Below, piece by piece: positions 21,882 through 41,420 of a DNA stretch of 64,000 bases. The translations under genes were made by a program, and so were the position numbers. The stretch spans positions 1,612,001 to 1,676,000 of the forward strand of contig NZ_BPIJ01000001.1 of assembly GCF_026004055.1 (NCBI RefSeq), written 5' to 3'. The DNA comes from Meiothermus sp. Lineage in GTDB: Bacteria > Deinococcota > Deinococci > Deinococcales > Thermaceae. Position 1 is the stretch's first letter. The number at the start of each line of letters is the position of its first letter. Below the pieces are notes generated by a model that had not been told where the DNA came from, ran no database searches, and was given only the letters and a program-made list of their open reading frames with translations.

Positions 21882-23030
21882 ATGCATCGTTTATCACATA
21901 TTTCTCTGTTCTCCGGCGCGCTGGGTTTGGATTTAGGCTTGGAGCAAGCGGGTTTTGAAACGCTGGCCTTTGTTGAGCTCGATCCTGTCGCTCGCCAAAC
22001 CATTCATCTCAACCTAAACCGCCTGAACCGCTCAGCCGTCGTATTAGAAGATGTAACACGGATAACCGCGCAAGACTTGCTCGAGGCAACCGGTCTGCAG
22101 GTAGGTGAAGCCACCCTGGTTTCGGGGGGTCCCCCCTGCCAACCCTTTAGCACGGCGGGCCGTCGCGCAGCCATACAAGACCCTAGGGGCAGTCTGTTTC
22201 GGGATTTTGTGCGTCTGATTGAAGGAATACAGCCGCGTTTTTTCGTCATGGAAAACGTCCGCGGCTTGCTCTCGGCGGCCATTCGCCACCGTCCCATCGA
22301 GCAGCGGGGGAAGGGGGCACGTCCCTATGAACCCGACGAGCTACCTGGATCGGCCTTTCAGGTAATTCTGGATGAGTTCGAGCGGCTTGGCTACACCTAT
22401 GTATACGGTCTGCTCAATGCTGCCGACTATGGCGTGCCCCAGATTCGTGAGCGGGTCATTATTATCGGCAGCCGCGACCACGAGCCCATTGCCCTGCCCA
22501 AGCCCACCCACAGCCAGAACGGCTCGGGACTTCCCCGATGGCGGACTTTACGGGAAGCCTTGGAGGGCCTGCGCGACCCAGAACCCCAATACCCGCCCTA
22601 TCCCGAGTCGAGGCTGCGTTTCCTCCGACTGATTCCAGAAGGAGGTAACTGGCGTAGCTTGCCACCTGAACTCCTCCCAGAAGCCATGGGCGGGGCCCTC
22701 CACTCGGGGGGCGGAAAAGTGGGTTTTTATCGCCGCCTAGCCTGGGATAAACCCTCCCCCACGATTACGACCAGCCCCGCCCAAAAAGCCACCGATATGT
22801 GTCACCCAAGCGAGCTGCGGCCCATTAGCGTCCGGGAAGCAGCCCGCATTCAGGGCTTTCCGGACGACTGGGTGTTTTGTGGCTCCATGGCAGATCAGTA
22901 TCGCCAGATCGGAAACGCAGTACCGCTGGGCTTGGGTAAAGCCATCGGAGACTCGCTCATCGCCACTTTGCGGGGAGAGAACAAAACCCCTGTGCGGCAG
23001 GTGGGGCTGTTTGAAGTAGTTAGGTTATAG
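21882..23030 (+). CDS. DNA (cytosine-5) methyltransferase of a type II R-M system
   Basis: All main m5C motifs are visible: LFSGALGLDLGLEQAGF (I), SGGPPCQPFSTAGRR with the catalytic PC dipeptide (IV), FFVMENVRGLL (VI), GVPQIRERVIIIGSR (VIII), PSPTITTSP (IX) and RQIGNAVP (X). The variable region between VIII and IX contains the target recognition domain. Length (382 aa) is normal. It starts 4 bp after the nuclease gene and protects host DNA from it; translation of both from one transcript is likely. Recognition sequence is not readable from sequence, GGWCC being a guess from the partner. Confidence 0.93.
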   Translation: MHRLSHISLFSGALGLDLGLEQAGFETLAFVELDPVARQTIHLNLNRLNRSAVVLEDVTRITAQDLLEATGLQVGEATLVSGGPPCQPFSTAGRRAAIQDPRGSLFRDFVRLIEGIQPRFFVMENVRGLLSAAIRHRPIEQRGKGARPYEPDELPGSAFQVILDEFERLGYTYVYGLLNAADYGVPQIRERVIIIGSRDHEPIALPKPTHSQNGSGLPRWRTLREALEGLRDPEPQYPPYPESRLRFLRLIPEGGNWRSLPPELLPEAMGGALHSGGGKVGFYRRLAWDKPSPTITTSPAQKATDMCHPSELRPISVREAARIQGFPDDWVFCGSMADQYRQIGNAVPLGLGKAIGDSLIATLRGENKTPVRQVGLFEVVRL

Positions 23031-25203: not shown

Positions 25204-25399
25204 ATACCGGATTCAAAAAGATACTCTTGAAAACCAAAAACCCAGAGGCTATCTTTTTGAATCCTAGAGCACACCCCTCCCTGACGGTCGGCGAAAAAAA
25301 CGTCTCCCTTCCAAGGGGCGGTATCGCCCTCCGCTACGCGGATAACTTCGGTCGGGTTAGTTTGTCACCGAACGGTGACAAACTAACCGAATCTGGTAT
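25204..25399 (+). repeat. repeat family D, copy D1
   Basis: A ~196-bp element with inverted ends ATACCGGATTC and GAATCTGGTAT. A nearly identical copy is at 61588-61784 and a diverged half copy at 41513-41566. The interior has a palindrome GTTAGTTTGTCACC/GGTGACAAACTAAC. It runs up to the ilvA stop codon (TAA, 25399-25401 on the minus strand), sharing one base with it. E2 and D1 fill the 25030-25398 gap. Confidence 0.85.
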
Positions 25400-26628
25400 T
25401 AGTCGGGCCAGGCCACGTGCTCACGCTCCACCGCGTAGCCGGCTTTCTCGAGATCCGCCACCACCTCTTCGCCGTGCTGGGCATCGCGCACCTCGAGCAC
25501 CAGCTCCACCCCCACCTTGCCCAGGGGGGCTAGCCACAGAGCCCGACGGTGAAAAATGTCGATGATGTTGGCCCCGGCGGCCGCCACGTGATCCACCACC
25601 CGGGCAAGCGCCCCCGGACGATCCACCACCGCCAGCTTGAGCAGCAGGTAACGCCCCTGCCGCACCATGACCTGCTCAATCACGCGCGAGAGCAGGTTGC
25701 CGTCGATGTTGCCCCCACAGAGCACGGTAGCCACGGTCTGCCCGGCCTGAATGGGCACCTTACCGGCCAGGATGGCCCCCATCCCGGCGGCCCCGGCCCC
25801 CTCCACTACCAGCTTGAGGTTCTGGGCGCAGTGGGCAATCCCCCGGGCGATTTCGTCGTCGGTCACCTCGACCACCTGGCTCACGTACTGCTGGATGAGG
25901 GGCAGGGTTAGGTCGCCGGGGCGCTTGACTGCGATGCCATCGGCGATGGTCTGGGCCACCGGCACGCTCACCGGCTTCCCGGCCTTGAGCGACAAATTGA
26001 CCGGCGCACAGCCCGCCGCCTGCACCCCGATGATCTGGGTTTGTGGGCGCAGGCTCTTGACCGCTACAGCAATCCCCCCAATCAGGCCCCCCCCGCCGAT
26101 GGGCACCACCAGCACGTCCAGGTCGGGCAGGGCCTCGAGGAGCTCGAGGCCAATGGTGCCCTGCCCGGCGATGATTTTTTCATCGTTGAAGGCGTGGACA
26201 TAGGTGTAGCCGTGCTGCTGCTGGAGTTCGCGGGCGTGGGCCACCGCATCGTCGAAGCTGGCCCCGTACAAAACCACCTCGGCCCCCAGGCGGCGGGTGG
26301 CCGCAATTTTGGTGAGAGGAGCGTGCTGGGGCATCACGATCACCGAGCGGATGCCCTGGAGCGAGGCCGCCAGCGCCACCCCCTGGGCGTGGTTACCCGC
26401 TGAAGGCGCAATCACCCCCCGGGCCTTTTCTTCCGGGGTAAGCGAGGCTATTTTGTGGTAGGCCCCGCGAATCTTGAAGGAGCCGCTACGCTGCAAACAC
26501 TCGGCCTTGACAAACACCCGCGCCCCGAGTTCCTCGGAAGCTAGGGGGTCGGGCAGGGTGGGGGTGGGGGCCGTCACCCCGCGAATCGTCTCGCGGGCGG
26601 CCTGAATGTCTTCGAGTCGAACCGCCAT
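25399..26628 (-). CDS. ilvA: threonine ammonia-lyase (threonine dehydratase)
   Basis: A PLP fold-type II enzyme: the lysine of GSFKIRGAYHK (about residue 50) binds PLP, SAGNHAQGVA follows, and GGGGLIGGIA is the phosphate-binding loop. The C-terminal ~80 residues (LKLAVVDRPGALARVVDHV...) form one ACT domain, the short ACT-containing form. It deaminates L-threonine to 2-oxobutanoate, the entry to isoleucine synthesis, or acts catabolically. TACAAT at 26635-26640 (minus strand) ends 6 nt before the ATG, a leaderless promoter of its own, though the preceding DUF2201 gene ends only 15 bp upstream. Confidence 0.92.
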   Translation of the reverse strand: MAVRLEDIQAARETIRGVTAPTPTLPDPLASEELGARVFVKAECLQRSGSFKIRGAYHKIASLTPEEKARGVIAPSAGNHAQGVALAASLQGIRSVIVMPQHAPLTKIAATRRLGAEVVLYGASFDDAVAHARELQQQHGYTYVHAFNDEKIIAGQGTIGLELLEALPDLDVLVVPIGGGGLIGGIAVAVKSLRPQTQIIGVQAAGCAPVNLSLKAGKPVSVPVAQTIADGIAVKRPGDLTLPLIQQYVSQVVEVTDDEIARGIAHCAQNLKLVVEGAGAAGMGAILAGKVPIQAGQTVATVLCGGNIDGNLLSRVIEQVMVRQGRYLLLKLAVVDRPGALARVVDHVAAAGANIIDIFHRRALWLAPLGKVGVELVLEVRDAQHGEEVVADLEKAGYAVEREHVAWPD

Positions 26629-26643
26629 GCGCCGATTGTATCG

Positions 26644-27873
26644 CTAGAAGAGCCGGGCTACCTCGCCAAAGGGAAACGAGGCGGCGTCAAGTCCCCCCGG
26701 CGCCACCACCCATAGCGTGGGGAGTTGCGGGGCCAGGAGGGGAAAATCACCGTAGCCATCGGTCAGGTACACACACACCCCCTCGAGGGCTGTGCGATTC
26801 ACCTCCTCAAAAAACGGCACAAAGCTAGTGCCGCCACCCCCCTGGGGCGGGGGAATTTCGCCGTCGGCCTTTAGTTCATGCGGGCCGTAGAGGGCGGCAT
26901 CGGCGTAGAACAGCCGGGCTTCTAAATGCGGGTAAGCCCGTAGAATGCCCTGCACCTCGCCCAAAAAGCGGCGGATCAGGGCATCGTCTACCGAGCCCGA
27001 GGTGTCCACGGCGATGTAAACCTTGAGGCTCTCGCCCTCGAGGGTCTCCAGGTATAGGCCGCGTCCCACGTGGCGGCGGTCGTAGCCGGCAAAGTCGGTG
27101 GGGGTGCGTACCAGAAAACGCCACAGCAGGGTTTTCCAGTCGAGTTCGGCAGGTTCCAGGAGGCCAAAAGCCCGCTCGAGACCCACCGGCAGGCTGCCCT
27201 GGCCCTGGCTGCGGGCAATGGCCTGGGCCTGCTGCACGGCCTTTTTCCAGTGCTTTTCGATGGCGGCTTTCTCGGCCTCGCCGAGCGTGCCCCCCTCCAC
27301 CCGCTTCTTGCTGCGGCGGGGCTTGCCCTTCTGTCCCGGCAAGCCCTGGTTCTGCTTGCCCTCGCCCTCTGCGGCCTCTGCATCATCGGGGGGGGCCTCG
27401 AGCAAGTCCGGCACAACTTCCTCGGATGGTTCCTGGGGTAGCAGGGCATAAACCTCTTCGACAGCGAAGCGCTCGAGCTCGGGGTTACGGACATGCCCTT
27501 CGGGCAGGCTGTAACCCTGCGCGATCAGGAGGCCGTTCACCACGATGTCGGCCGCGATGTTCCAGCGCCGGGGATCGCGGTGCGAGCGGCGGGTAACGTG
27601 CAGCAGAGCCGCATGCAGAACCTCGTGCAGCAGCACCCCATCGAAGTGTTCGTCGGAGAGGGCCGCCATAAAGTGAGGGTTGTAAAACACGTCGCGCCCG
27701 TCGGTAGCCGCCGTGGGAATGACCAGGCTGGGCCGGTAGTGGGCAAAAAGCGCCAGGGTGGCCAAAAAAGGCGAGCGCCTGCGCAAGCGAAACAGGCTGG
27801 CCGTGATGCGACGAGACAGCACCGACACAGGGTTTACAGAACCAATTTCAAGGTCGGGGAACGTTTCGGACAT
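26644..27873 (-). CDS. DUF2201 protein: putative metallopeptidase domain plus VWA-like domain
   Basis: The N-terminal third holds HEVLHAALLH near residue 92, an HExxH zinc site with a further histidine. A charged Gln/Lys/Glu-rich linker follows. The C-terminal part has a VWA-like domain with the metal-ion motif DTSGS (VYIAVDTSGSVDDALIRRF). This two-domain layout is that of DUF2201 proteins, which are usually encoded next to MoxR ATPases, as here. The ATG at 27873 has GCGAGGT upstream and lies 16 bp after the repeat-protein stop. Peptidase activity is unproven for the family. Confidence 0.85.
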   Translation of the reverse strand: MSETFPDLEIGSVNPVSVLSRRITASLFRLRRRSPFLATLALFAHYRPSLVIPTAATDGRDVFYNPHFMAALSDEHFDGVLLHEVLHAALLHVTRRSHRDPRRWNIAADIVVNGLLIAQGYSLPEGHVRNPELERFAVEEVYALLPQEPSEEVVPDLLEAPPDDAEAAEGEGKQNQGLPGQKGKPRRSKKRVEGGTLGEAEKAAIEKHWKKAVQQAQAIARSQGQGSLPVGLERAFGLLEPAELDWKTLLWRFLVRTPTDFAGYDRRHVGRGLYLETLEGESLKVYIAVDTSGSVDDALIRRFLGEVQGILRAYPHLEARLFYADAALYGPHELKADGEIPPPQGGGGTSFVPFFEEVNRTALEGVCVYLTDGYGDFPLLAPQLPTLWVVAPGGLDAASFPFGEVARLF

Positions 27874-27889
27874 TCGAACCTCGCAGGCA

Positions 27890-30616
27890 TCAGGGCTGTG
27901 GAGGGCTTTGGGTTGCCAAACCCTCGAGGGCCTTTTGCCGCACCAGCCGGTTGCCATCCTGGGTTAGATGCTGTAGCACCTCCGGCGGCGTCTGGGGGTT
28001 CTGAGCCACCGCATAGCGCACCAGCCACTCCGGCGCGGCCCAGTGGCGCACCTTAGACAACTCGCGCGAGGAGATTTCGGGCCACGACAGGGCCACCGCA
28101 CGGTTCAGAGCAAAGCGCGACCTCGAGGCCTGAAGGGCCAGCCGTTTGCGGTACTCAGCCAGCGCCTGAGGCTCGAGGCGCGGATTGCGCAGGGCCGAAA
28201 GGCGCACCTGCTCGTCCAGATCGCACAGCAAAACTTCCAGAACGGCGGAGGGGGTGCACGGATGCTCGGCCACCGCTTGGCGTACATCGCGGTCGGGGTC
28301 TTGGGCCAGCAGGGCCAGCGCCTCGGGGCTCAGGGCCGGGTTGCTGGCCAGGGCCCGGCGCACCGTCCACTCGCCGTCGCTTTGCAACTGGCGCAGGGTT
28401 TGGGGGGGCGTGGCCGGGTTTTGTGCCGCCAGGGCACGTCCCCAAGCACCTTGCTGGGCCAATTGTTGCAAAAACTCGCTCCCCAGGCTGGGGTCTATGG
28501 CCTCGGCCCGGTGGTAGTGTTCCACCAGCGCCGCGGGGATGCGGGGGTGGGCCCGGGCTTTGTTCCGCACCAGTTCGTCGGGGTCGGCCAGTAGCATCTG
28601 GAGGGCTGGAAGCGGGGTTAGGGGGTGCTCGGCCACCCGCAGCCGGATATCCTGCTGGTCGTCAGCGGCCAGGCGGCCCAGAATTTCCGCCGTCAGGCGC
28701 GGATGCAGGGCCACCTCTCGCCGCACATCGGGGTCGCGGTCGCCGGATAAGCGGCGTAGCAGATCGGGGGGCGGCTTCGGATGGGCCGCTACTGCCTGCC
28801 GCACCCGCCAGTCTTCGTCGTGGGCCAGGTTCCGCAGGGTTTCGGCCGGCGTCAGTGGGTGCCGTGCCGCCAGGCGCCTGGCCCAATCGCTGCCCTGTGC
28901 CAGTTTGTCCAGTAATTCAGGGGATAGCGGTGCTTGGTTCTTAGCTCGGCGGTAAAGTTCGGCCCGGCTCATGCCTGCATCCAGACCGGCAAACCACTCC
29001 GCAAACAGCGGCTCGAGGGCGGCTTCGGGCGTCCGGGGGTTGTCGGCAACGGCCTGCCGCACATCGGGGTCTAGGTCTTGGGCCAGTTGCTCCAAGGCCT
29101 CGGTCGGCGTGGAAAGGTGGGCGGCCACCGCCTGCCGCACCCGCCAGTGGTCGTCCTGGGCTAGTTGCAGCAGCAGGTTGGGCGGGGTGCGGGGGTTCTG
29201 TCCGACCTGGGCCCGCACATCAGGCTGCTCGTCGGTGGCCAGTCTTTCCAGGCTTTGCAGCGGCGTAGATCGGTGCACCGCCACCGCCTGCCGCACGTCA
29301 GGGTCGGTATCGGCGGCCATTGCGGCCAGGGTAGCGGGCGGGGTTTTGGGGTGGCGGGCCACCGCTAAGCGGGTGTGCCAGTCGGGGTCGGCGTGGTAGC
29401 GATGTAAAAGCAGCAGCGGAGCGCAGGGATGCATCAGGGCCAGCCGCCGGGTATGGGAACCCAGCCCGGCCCAACGCTCTAGCGCCGGAGGTGCGAGCGT
29501 GGGGTCTTGGGCCTGCAGCCGCTCAAACTGCTGTAGTGCCGCGGTGGACAAGCCGGGGTGCTGGGCTGCGGCCTGGCGCACCTCCTCGTACTCGTCGGCC
29601 AGAAGCCGCTCGAGCCACCGGCCGGGGGTCTGGGGGTTGGTCGCCAACGCCTGCCGCACCTCCCGGTCACCGTCCTGGGCCAGCGTTGCAAACCAGGGCT
29701 CGCTAAGCGCTGGGTTGCGGGCTGCTGCAGCGCGCACTCGAAAGTCGTCATCGGTGATCAAACGCCCTAGCAGATCGGGCGGGGTTTGTGGATGTTGAGC
29801 CACCAGTTGCCGTACCCAGGGGTGCCCCTCGGTGGATAAACCACCACTTGTGCCAAGGGGGATTGTCCCCTCGGCCAGCGTCTCCCAGGGTGCCTCCAGG
29901 GGAAGCCGGGCCTCGAGCCGATCCAACCACAAAACGGTCTCGCGGGGGGCGGCGGAGTGCCGGCGGGCAGCTTTGCGCACCTCCTCCTCTTCGTCGAATA
30001 AGAAAGCTTCCAGCACCGCTTGGGGTAGGTTTTCTTGCTCGAGCAGGGCCAGCCTCAAAGCAGGTTCGGGCTCGAGGGCGATGCGCCGGGTCAGCCAAGG
30101 GGGGGTCAGCCCCAAAAGCACCATCTGGCGCAGTTCGGGGTAGTCAAGGTCGGTCTCGCACCACCCCAGGGCCGCCTCGAGGGGCTCGCTCTCGAAACCC
30201 ACATGCAGCCGAGCCGCCTCGGCCACCGCCGGCAGGGGATGGTCGGTCAGGGCTTCCACCAGCTCAAAGGGCGCCGAGGGGTTTCGCAATACGCTCAAGA
30301 GTGCTGCACCCTCGCCCTCCCGCACCGCCCAGCGCAGAAAGTGCAGGGGAGCCATGGGGCAGCCCAGCAGGCGATTGCGGGCATACCCCGGCATCTCGGC
30401 CAACCAGTTGGCGTTTACCAGCAAAAGCAGATCCAGCACCGGGTTTGCCAGCACCGCCTCGGGAAAGTGCACCGCCAGCCGCCAGAGCACCGCCTCGGGG
30501 GCGTTGGGGTTGCCCGCCACGGCGCGCCGGACTTCGGCCTCGGGCCGTGAGGCCAACGCCTTTAGCCGCTCAGGGGCGGTTTTGGGGTTCTGGGCTTCCT
30601 CGAGAAACACTTTCAT
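27890..30616 (-). CDS. large LRV/HEAT-like repeat protein, partner of MoxR and DUF2201
   Basis: The 908-residue protein is built from end to end of ~24-residue helical repeats with the consensus D.D..VRqAVA.HP.TP...L..La; at least 22 units are recognisable by the VR.AVA.(H/N)P core. This resembles leucine-rich-repeat-variant (LRV) and HEAT/armadillo solenoids, which bind proteins. No signal peptide, no iron-sulfur N-terminus and no catalytic domain are seen. It lies between the MoxR and DUF2201 genes on one strand with 54- and 16-bp gaps, so it probably acts with them, perhaps as adaptor or substrate recogniser (inference). Confidence 0.85.
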   Translation of the reverse strand: MKVFLEEAQNPKTAPERLKALASRPEAEVRRAVAGNPNAPEAVLWRLAVHFPEAVLANPVLDLLLLVNANWLAEMPGYARNRLLGCPMAPLHFLRWAVREGEGAALLSVLRNPSAPFELVEALTDHPLPAVAEAARLHVGFESEPLEAALGWCETDLDYPELRQMVLLGLTPPWLTRRIALEPEPALRLALLEQENLPQAVLEAFLFDEEEEVRKAARRHSAAPRETVLWLDRLEARLPLEAPWETLAEGTIPLGTSGGLSTEGHPWVRQLVAQHPQTPPDLLGRLITDDDFRVRAAAARNPALSEPWFATLAQDGDREVRQALATNPQTPGRWLERLLADEYEEVRQAAAQHPGLSTAALQQFERLQAQDPTLAPPALERWAGLGSHTRRLALMHPCAPLLLLHRYHADPDWHTRLAVARHPKTPPATLAAMAADTDPDVRQAVAVHRSTPLQSLERLATDEQPDVRAQVGQNPRTPPNLLLQLAQDDHWRVRQAVAAHLSTPTEALEQLAQDLDPDVRQAVADNPRTPEAALEPLFAEWFAGLDAGMSRAELYRRAKNQAPLSPELLDKLAQGSDWARRLAARHPLTPAETLRNLAHDEDWRVRQAVAAHPKPPPDLLRRLSGDRDPDVRREVALHPRLTAEILGRLAADDQQDIRLRVAEHPLTPLPALQMLLADPDELVRNKARAHPRIPAALVEHYHRAEAIDPSLGSEFLQQLAQQGAWGRALAAQNPATPPQTLRQLQSDGEWTVRRALASNPALSPEALALLAQDPDRDVRQAVAEHPCTPSAVLEVLLCDLDEQVRLSALRNPRLEPQALAEYRKRLALQASRSRFALNRAVALSWPEISSRELSKVRHWAAPEWLVRYAVAQNPQTPPEVLQHLTQDGNRLVRQKALEGLATQSPPQP

Positions 30617-30670
30617 TTCATTCTGCCGATGATCTATGACCTGCAGTCAAGGGTCGGGGTCGTAGGCACC

Positions 30671-31666
30671 TCAGCCCAAAACCAGCTCCCGGTACTCCGC
30701 CAAATAGGCCTGCAAGCGGGGCTCCTCCCGTACCAGGAGGGCAAATTCCCCCAAGCCCTGCACCTTGAGCCGGCGGTAGAGGTCACAGACCAGCAGTTGC
30801 ACCCACTCCGAGGGTGCTACCTCCACCATCCAGCGGAAAGCGTTCAGGGCCTGCCGGGCATTCTCGGCACGGAAGGCCAGCCCCATCGTAAGGGCGTAGC
30901 GGGCCGAGGGTTCCTCGGGGAAGGGCGGGCTCAAGCGGCCCTCGAGGATTCCACTCAGTTCGGGCAGCATGCCATACACCTGCTCGTAGGCGGCCAGCTC
31001 GGCGGCGGCGGCCTCGCCCACCACCGGAGCGATGTCGAGACCGGCCTTCAAAAGGTGCGAGGCCATCTCCCAGCTTCGCGGGCTGGGCCAGGCCGGACTT
31101 TTGGCGTCCATCTGGTGGAGCAAGGCCGGGCGGAAGGCCAAAAACGCCAGGATACGCTCGTCTATACCGGCCTGCAGACCGTAGGCTTTGAAGCTATCGA
31201 AATCGGGGGTGACCTCGAGGTGAATAAAGCGGTTGGCCAGCGGGGCCGGCATGTCGAACACCGCGGCCCGGTCTTCCTTGCGGTTGCCCGCCGCCCAGAC
31301 AAACCAGCCCTCGGGTAGCTCATACGAGCCCACCTTGCGATCCAAGATGAGCTGCTGGGCCATGCCCTGCATGGTGGGGGGGGCCATGTTGAGCTCGTCC
31401 AGGAAAAGAATCCCCTCCCCTTCCCGGGGCAGAAACTCCGGCGGATACCAGCGTGAAACCCCGTCTAAAGGCACCGGCAGGCCACGCAGGTCGGTAGGGG
31501 CCAGTTGGGAGAGCCGCACGTCAATAAAGCCGATGCCATACCTGCGGGCGGTCTGGGCTACAATCGAAGACTTCCCCACCCCCGGCGGCCCCCACAGCAT
31601 GGTGGCAAGCTGGATTCGATGCTCAATCAACCCCGACAGGTACTGGGTAAGTTCGGCTGGGCTCAC
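30671..31666 (-). CDS. MoxR-family AAA+ ATPase
   Basis: Walker A GPPGVGKSS (about residue 26), Walker B ILFLDELN (about 88), sensor-1 AAGNR and the arginine-finger region PLANRF identify a MoxR-type AAA+ ATPase; the lid region follows to residue 331. MoxR ATPases work as chaperones with VWA-domain proteins to assemble or insert cofactors into complexes. The start is a GTG at 31666. It heads a three-gene unit: MoxR, the repeat protein and DUF2201. No Shine-Dalgarno sequence is evident. Confidence 0.88.
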   Translation of the reverse strand: MSPAELTQYLSGLIEHRIQLATMLWGPPGVGKSSIVAQTARRYGIGFIDVRLSQLAPTDLRGLPVPLDGVSRWYPPEFLPREGEGILFLDELNMAPPTMQGMAQQLILDRKVGSYELPEGWFVWAAGNRKEDRAAVFDMPAPLANRFIHLEVTPDFDSFKAYGLQAGIDERILAFLAFRPALLHQMDAKSPAWPSPRSWEMASHLLKAGLDIAPVVGEAAAAELAAYEQVYGMLPELSGILEGRLSPPFPEEPSARYALTMGLAFRAENARQALNAFRWMVEVAPSEWVQLLVCDLYRRLKVQGLGEFALLVREEPRLQAYLAEYRELVLG

Positions 31667-40337: not shown

Positions 40338-41420
40338 CTAAAGCAAGGCAGATTGATAAACTTCCGGCGGGCCCGAGAGCTCTTGAAAGGCCCGGCATAC
40401 TTTTTGGCTGTGGGTAGCAACAAACAAAAACTCCCGATTCTCTGTATGTGAAATTTGCCCAACTTTTTCGCCTTTAGGGTTGTAGATGCCAATTCGAGCC
40501 CCCACATAGCGTTGGTGGGGGCGGGTTAGCCGCACCACATATCCCCAGTCTTTCAGCATGGCCTCTATTTCCTCCGCCGCGAAAAATCCTTCATTACTAA
40601 AAGAAACCACCACGTGATTGGCGTTGATCCGAGACAAAACCGTTCGCATGGCTTCTTTGGCCTCGCGCTTTGAGTTGAAGGGGCTTTTTCGCTCCTGAAC
40701 GTCCACTCGTTTTTGGGCCACGCCGTATGTTTGTGGGTTGTCCCAGCGAACCAGGGTTTCCCACACGTGATAGTTTCCCAGGTAGGAATGCTGATTATAG
40801 GGGGGGTCAAGATAAAAAATATCGGCCTCGAGCTGCCCAGCCATATCCAGTGCGTCGCCTTGAAAGGCTTTTCCTGTTCCCGGAAGAAGGGGAGGGTACT
40901 CGAGGCGCAAATCGTTGTAGGCCCTGGGGGCCCAGTCCTTCAGGTAGGCCATCTGTATACCCGTAGTTGAATCCACTTTATCGGCAGCCAGTATCAAACT
41001 GGTCAGCAGGATTGCTTTGAGCAAGGGGTCACTCGAGTACACCGATTCGATTAGCTCACGTATGGCCTCTATCTTTGCTCCGTTCTTGGGCTGAAAATAC
41101 CGCGCATCGATGCAGTTGGCTTTTGTGAACCAACCTTCTACCGGAGCAACCCGCATAAGCTCTGCAAGGATTTTTTCTACTCTGTCTCGAGTGTATTCAC
41201 GTGCATCAGCTTCAACTAGGGTTTGAGCCAGCACAAAAGCATAGGCGTTTATGTCATTGGCCACTACGTCAAAGCCTTTGGCTTTCAAGGCATGGCCGAC
41301 ACGTGAACTACCTGAAAATAAATCCACTACACGATTGGCTTTTTTTAGCTTGCTGATTTTTTCGATGATTTCAACAATCCAAGGTAATAAAGCCCGTTTT
41401 GAACCAATGTACTTGATCAT
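40338..41420 (-). CDS. orphan DNA adenine methyltransferase (D12/Dam-like class)
   Basis: The protein opens MIKYIGSKRALLPWIVEII, has the AdoMet motif VDLFSGSSRVGHALKAKG and the catalytic motif FYLDPPYNQHSYLGNYHVWETLV, in the D12 class order. It should transfer a methyl group to N6 of adenine. There is no adjacent endonuclease, so it is either an orphan methylase or the remnant of an R-M system. GGAGGGCGA precedes the ATG. GC content is visibly lower than in neighbours, suggesting transfer. Its TAG stop lies in the CTAA at the end of a repeat fragment. Confidence 0.87.
   Translation of the reverse strand: MIKYIGSKRALLPWIVEIIEKISKLKKANRVVDLFSGSSRVGHALKAKGFDVVANDINAYAFVLAQTLVEADAREYTRDRVEKILAELMRVAPVEGWFTKANCIDARYFQPKNGAKIEAIRELIESVYSSDPLLKAILLTSLILAADKVDSTTGIQMAYLKDWAPRAYNDLRLEYPPLLPGTGKAFQGDALDMAGQLEADIFYLDPPYNQHSYLGNYHVWETLVRWDNPQTYGVAQKRVDVQERKSPFNSKREAKEAMRTVLSRINANHVVVSFSNEGFFAAEEIEAMLKDWGYVVRLTRPHQRYVGARIGIYNPKGEKVGQISHTENREFLFVATHSQKVCRAFQELSGPPEVYQSALL

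Follow-up and report, generated by a model that had tools for sequence, protein, structure and literature searches.

Evidence for a conserved, repeatedly rearranged gene trio of a MoxR ATPase, a free-standing LRV solenoid and a DUF2201/VWA protein

The window, that is the whole stretch of 64,000 nucleotides of Meiothermus sp. DNA analysed here (contig NZ_BPIJ01000001.1), carries three neighbouring genes on the minus strand that are separated by 54 bp (MoxR/LRV) and 16 bp (LRV/DUF2201). All three open reading frames that a preliminary description had placed on one strand were found at the positions given there, with the following features:

31666-30671, minus strand: MoxR-type AAA+ ATPase, 331 aa, GTG start, Pfam AAA_5 (8.9e-7)
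31568..31591, minus strand: Walker A GPPGVGKS, MoxR residues 26-33, conserved among relatives
27890..30616, minus strand: LRV solenoid, 908 aa, about 26 repeats of 26 residues, Pfam LRV; proposed client-recognition adaptor
30308..30481, minus strand: partner-specific N-terminal module of LRV, residues 46-103, RLAVHFPEAVLANPVLDLLLLVNANWLAEMPGYARNRLLGCPMAPLHFLRWAVREGEG; profile match in this genome with E=5.9e-25
27950..28027, minus strand: C-terminal cap motif of LRV, WLVRYAVAQNPQTPPEVLQHLTQDGN, present in 22/57 uncut module-bearing LRV proteins
26644..27873, minus strand: DUF2201, 409 aa, metallopeptidase-like metal-binding N-domain and C-terminal VWA domain (PF13203 and PF09967)
27598..27627, minus strand: metal-site motif HEVLHAALLH (HExxHxxxxH) of DUF2201, three His near-invariant
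26992..27006, minus strand: VWA MIDAS DTSGS (with T377 and D400, long-frame numbering), near-invariant

The open frame of DUF2201 extends to 27957. This longer frame runs into LRV, and related proteins have lengths close to 409 aa, so that the ATG at 27873 is most likely the start. Promoter and terminator scans at the locus returned nothing exceeding chance. A threonine dehydratase-like gene (window 25399-26628) begins 15 bp past DUF2201; it was ruled out as a fourth member because neighbour clustering showed it to be genus-local, recurring only in Meiothermus loci, and tight spacing alone thus proves nothing. Two type II DNA methyltransferase genes (PADLOC MTase_II, window 21882-23030 and 40338-41420) flank the trio.

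The MoxR protein has Walker A, Walker B, sensor 1 and an arginine finger, and residues G26, P28, G29, G31 and K32, D90-E91 (Walker B), N128 (sensor-1), R146 and R197 are conserved in 57 relatives. Only 25 residues precede its Walker A, and the VMAP-type motifs WxhapG and PsWRxa are absent. A scan of viral contigs with MoxR found no relative.

In DUF2201, the Pfam matches for DUF2201_N (2.5e-39) and the DUF2201 VWA domain (8.9e-20) both lie above the cut-off. The three His of HExxHxxxxH, later N and D residues and the MIDAS (DxSxS-T-D) are near-invariant. The Glu of the first motif behaves differently: HExxHxxxxH is intact in 83 of 94 motif-bearing proteins, and in the other 11 the Glu is replaced by Q (Herpetosiphon and Microbulbifer), T (Thiodiazotropha), V (G102, two overlapping loci of one gene), L (two paralogs of G008) or A (G612). 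Several of these Glu-less proteins are encoded at loci that retain a linked LRV gene. Since the Glu has been replaced in several lineages with the metal ligands kept, proteolysis, judged by sequence, cannot be the universal function of DUF2201, while metal binding probably is. The window protein itself has HExxH, but the label "metallopeptidase" given in the preliminary description needs correcting for the family, in which the catalytic Glu was repeatedly lost. The predicted structure (pLDDT 81.5) contains a VWA fold (Z 15.0, 128 residues, rmsd 2.1; the VIA-align rows are taken up by the VWA domain and barely cover the N-terminal domain). NorD (VWA) and, weakly, the small metallopeptidase selecase appear lower in the Foldseek list, and relatives of DUF2201 occur in 292 phage records.

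The protein encoded between these two belongs to the LRV family. It matches Pfam LRV PF01816 over 20 stretches (E=1.8e-81) with 263.5 bits, the curated cut-off being 21.6, and a repeat HMM of 26 residues finds 26 copies in its 908 aa. A long uniform array had been described before and is confirmed, with a period of 26 residues and not about 24; of the earlier designation "LRV/HEAT-like", LRV is the family name to retain, although HMMER partly scores HEAT as well. At E<=1e-3 the genome (3.18 Mb) yields no second LRV protein; the Pfam single-repeat model is too short for genome-wide counts. The predicted model is all-helical (mean pLDDT 89.8). Among known structures, the leucine-rich repeat variant protein 1lrv shares the LRV repeat fold and is matched by the LRV profile with E=1.4e-17. 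The model superimposes on it with Z 12.2 over 195 residues (rmsd 5.6), a value to be read with the caveats that repeats commonly give high Z, that designed alphaRep proteins outscore 1lrv in the same comparison and that Z says nothing of function. Unlike the window protein, 1lrv has 244 aa, and the N-terminal module lies outside the matched region.

This module, which spans roughly 58 residues close to the N-terminus and has the consensus LAxxFPxxxLxNPxLxLLLLENPxxLxxxP...FLxWA, is common to most LRV proteins associated with a MoxR-DUF2201 pair and was found in none of the Deinococcota LRV genes lacking a linked pair. It has no Pfam family above cut-off. In the predicted model it is made of helices that pass without a break into the superhelix, so that specialised repeats describe it better than a separate domain would. 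With the module as query, matches were obtained in 16/111 Deinococcota, 9/194 cyanobacterial and 17/301 Chloroflexota genomes, and DUF2201 is encoded in 16 of 16, 6 of 9 and 15 of 17 of these, respectively. The corresponding one-sided Fisher p values of 1.4e-10, 9.9e-8 and 2.5e-19 take no account of shared ancestry, and part of the sequences behind the module model came from these same lineages. Most module matches with examined surroundings adjoin MoxR. Exceptions exist in both directions. At L071, L072, L074 and L078 an LRV gene without detected module stands beside the pair, and some module-bearing LRV genes lie away from the pair or in genomes without detected DUF2201, these orphans looking broken at L103, L104 and L118 and intact at L099 and L119. 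No match was obtained in 241 Verrucomicrobiota; as G124, which has LRV at the locus, was missed too, this empty result shows no absence. An apparent fusion of the module with MoxR (L115, G612) was discarded, since its frame leaves the LRV reading frame and takes in no more than the final third of MoxR, as produced by a deletion or by the assembly. LRV genes of other kinds were also encountered: L075 (G006:C3:1-20000) has seven genes without the N-terminal module and with neither MoxR nor DUF2201 nearby, and L105 (G111:C1:1500000-1519000) has giant genes for proteins of 1339 and 1196 aa with the cap motif and without the module.

The gene neighbourhood was surveyed with a MoxR-only query, blind to LRV, which gave 43 loci from Deinococcota, Cyanobacteria, Chloroflexota, Verrucomicrobiota, Planctomycetota and Pseudomonadota, and the open reading frames around them were scored by HMMs for all three proteins. 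An LRV gene adjoins the MoxR-DUF2201 pair in 28 of the 43, 27 times on the same strand and once (L070) on the opposite one, and apart from arrays the flanks of these loci hold no further LRV gene. The order differs: Meiothermus and Deinococcales have LRV between the two other genes, Thiodiazotropha, Microbulbifer and Phycisphaerales have it downstream of them, and in Herpetosiphon, many cyanobacteria and further lineages it lies upstream. A quick tree of 60 MoxR rows shows at least 16 switches of its position and at least seven of its adjacency. At locus L076 the genes overlap by 4 bp. All-against-all clustering of neighbours in 54 loci places LRV at 38, the sole family recurring broadly across phyla; the second-largest cluster is ABC-ATPase-like (8/54 loci, positions scattered), and no further family has a fixed place across phyla. 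Near relatives without the solenoid, which would speak against a unit, were looked for, and the same-genus genomes having a close DUF2201 turned out to carry the solenoid at their orthologous loci. The earlier proposal of one unit is thus upheld by an order-shuffled neighbourhood in several phyla, by co-occurrence within genomes in three phyla and by the lack of a conserved fourth gene, and we regard it as strongly supported on these genomic grounds that the three genes are a unit that is conserved and has been rearranged repeatedly.

Some gene arrangements deserve separate mention. At L078 (G023:C2:287000-300000) a module-less LRV gene stands beside a distant pair, followed first by DUF2201 and then by MoxR; this may be another LRV association that exists in parallel. 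On the Thermus oshimai plasmid pTHEOS01 (L108) and at L088 (G031), LRV-like, MoxR and DUF2201 genes are followed, in this order, by those for an orphan of 742-746 aa and a UvrD helicase, making a cluster of five; GajB models match the helicase of G031. In Chloroflexota only, a small shared protein is encoded just after DUF2201 on the opposite strand (L052, L054, L058, L059 and L063).

A neighbouring LRV gene is absent from 15 of the 43 MoxR loci, notably in an Anaerolineae clade. Two phage loci (L109 and L110) have no LRV gene by the MoxR-DUF2201 pair, which occurs without linked LRV in phages such as S-TIM5 and phiFa. The pair can thus work without a linked LRV, and the latter would consequently be an adaptor and not a core part. 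Pentapeptide-repeat proteins adjoin LRV-less cyanobacterial pairs (L039:12389-13480, L043:12290-13381 and L047:3005-4246, assigned by Pfam for L039 and L047 and by clustering for L043) and were considered as a candidate alternative solenoid.

In other genomes the LRV gene is multiplied next to the pair. Cyanobacterium G136 contains seven tandem LRV genes followed by MoxR and DUF2201. The encoded proteins (238-387 aa) have a median identity of 75% over the first 104 aa and 60% over the remainder, and copies 3 and 6 agree at 825 of 828 nt, pointing at a recent duplication. In Calothrix (L050) there are five LRV genes, each of which bears the module. LRV is also the fastest evolving of the three proteins, identities between the window and the orthologs at three Meiothermus loci amounting to about 90% for MoxR, 78-84% for DUF2201 and 62-71% for LRV. 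A constant N-terminus combined with variable repeats would be expected for an adaptor. That the solenoid selects the client, as had been suggested from the window alone, is backed only indirectly, by the module, the variation in repeat number, the paralog arrays and the fast evolution.

NorQ-NorD is among the closest known systems. There, a MoxR hexamer twists its VWA partner to remodel the client (PMC13036017), and the pair likewise consists of a MoxR ATPase and a MIDAS-bearing VWA protein. However, NorQD has a known client, cNOR, whereas the trio has no linked client gene and includes an LRV solenoid in addition; an operon client enzyme as in NorQD or CbbQO is absent and no conserved fourth gene takes that place in the 54 loci. 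Kaur et al. (2020) described four types of MoxR-vWA ternary conflict systems (VMAP, iSTAND, FtsH and beta-propeller), none with a free LRV partner, and in the VMAP systems HEAT, pentapeptide and other repeat domains are fused to the vWA proteins (PMC7159879). These share with the trio MoxR, VWA, a third linked component and repeat domains as accessories, but the third part of the trio is a free-standing LRV with its own module and its VWA protein, a DUF2201 member, carries a metal-site domain. Neighbour clustering of the 54 loci revealed no VMAP, iSTAND, FtsH or beta-propeller gene recurring beside the trio. The group 2.2 jumbo phage pair, for which a role in virion assembly has been proposed, combines MoxR with a vWA protein fused to an N-terminal metallopeptidase domain (PMC7824862), but phage loci L109 and L110 are without LRV. 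A literature search, with most subscription papers outside its coverage, found no paper combining MoxR and DUF2201, and within the same coverage "leucine rich repeat variant" led to one unrelated paper. As far as this literature goes, a MoxR-VWA ternary arrangement with a free LRV solenoid is new.

We propose, with a probability of roughly 0.6, that the trio is one AAA+ remodelling machine with exchangeable solenoid adaptors, in which the N-terminal module docks and the repeats select the client. MoxR would act as a hexameric motor, by analogy with NorQ-NorD, and drive DUF2201 as a VWA co-chaperone whose MIDAS and N-terminal metal site may touch client or adaptor. LRV would be the exchangeable adaptor, docked via its conserved N-terminal module, and its variable repeat region would pick the client and bring it to MoxR-DUF2201. 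For a direct complex of the three proteins, for the hexamer and for LRV as adaptor, we reason from the analogy with NorQ-NorD.

What such a machine is for is a further question. Recognition of foreign or aberrant proteins in conflict and stress-related client remodelling both fit, and we lean slightly towards conflict. In this immune reading, which is compatible with the adaptor mechanism, LRV senses phage or other foreign proteins, MoxR-VWA sets a threshold and DUF2201 or a distant protein is the effector. It draws on the proposed ternary conflict systems (PMC7159879), on the patchy presence (9/194 sampled cyanobacteria, 20/301 Chloroflexota), on the tandem and recently duplicated LRV paralogs and on the hundreds of phages with a DUF2201 relative. 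Mobile copies point in the same direction: on plasmid pSYSA of Synechocystis PCC 6803, where 4 kb separate the LRV gene from the pair, the surroundings include toxin-antitoxin genes and a gene for an Orf5/HEC-06-like DUF262 protein, and the T. oshimai plasmid and the G031 locus feature the UvrD/GajB-like helicase. Against it, no PADLOC defence family covers the three proteins (only matches with E>=0.02), the neighbours include no conserved effector and the Meiothermus locus is stable, chromosomal and situated by a threonine dehydratase gene, so that we put this role forward tentatively, at a chance of about one in three.

We consider it less probable, though conceivable, that the trio is a chaperone for cofactor or metal insertion like NorQD, with the ligands of DUF2201 delivering or holding the metal and LRV positioning a metalloenzyme client. 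The retention of the three His and the conserved N/D even without the catalytic Glu, the Foldseek match of the VWA domain to NorD and the NorQD precedent (PMC13036017) would agree with this, but no metalloenzyme gene recurs beside the trio and the metal of the N-terminal domain may be purely structural. A regulated protease, in which DUF2201 cleaves clients that are unfolded by MoxR and chosen by LRV, could be read from the prevalence of intact HExxHxxxxH and from the weak similarity to selecase; the replacement of Glu by Q, T, V, L or A in the lineages listed above, several of them with linked LRV, makes it unlikely. Chance adjacency or lineage-specific synteny, to which the closely spaced (15 bp) but genus-local threonine dehydratase gene might lend some colour, is contradicted by the shuffled association in several phyla and the genome co-occurrence and is very improbable.

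Returning to the remodelling machine with exchangeable adaptors, one may speculate, with considerable doubt, that pair-linked LRV proteins constitute a diversifying repertoire of antigen-sensor adaptors, in which tandem variable solenoids with a constant docking N-terminus serve one AAA+/VWA threshold machine. If true, the LRV repertoire would be a counterpart, made of repeat proteins, to receptor repertoires in bacterial immunity. The N-terminal module, the paralog arrays and the pSYSA copy in Synechocystis PCC 6803 provide sequence handles for questions on adaptors and immunity. MoxR-VWA pairs are widespread and their choice of clients is poorly understood; the module-bearing solenoid offers a testable answer, namely adaptor subunits.
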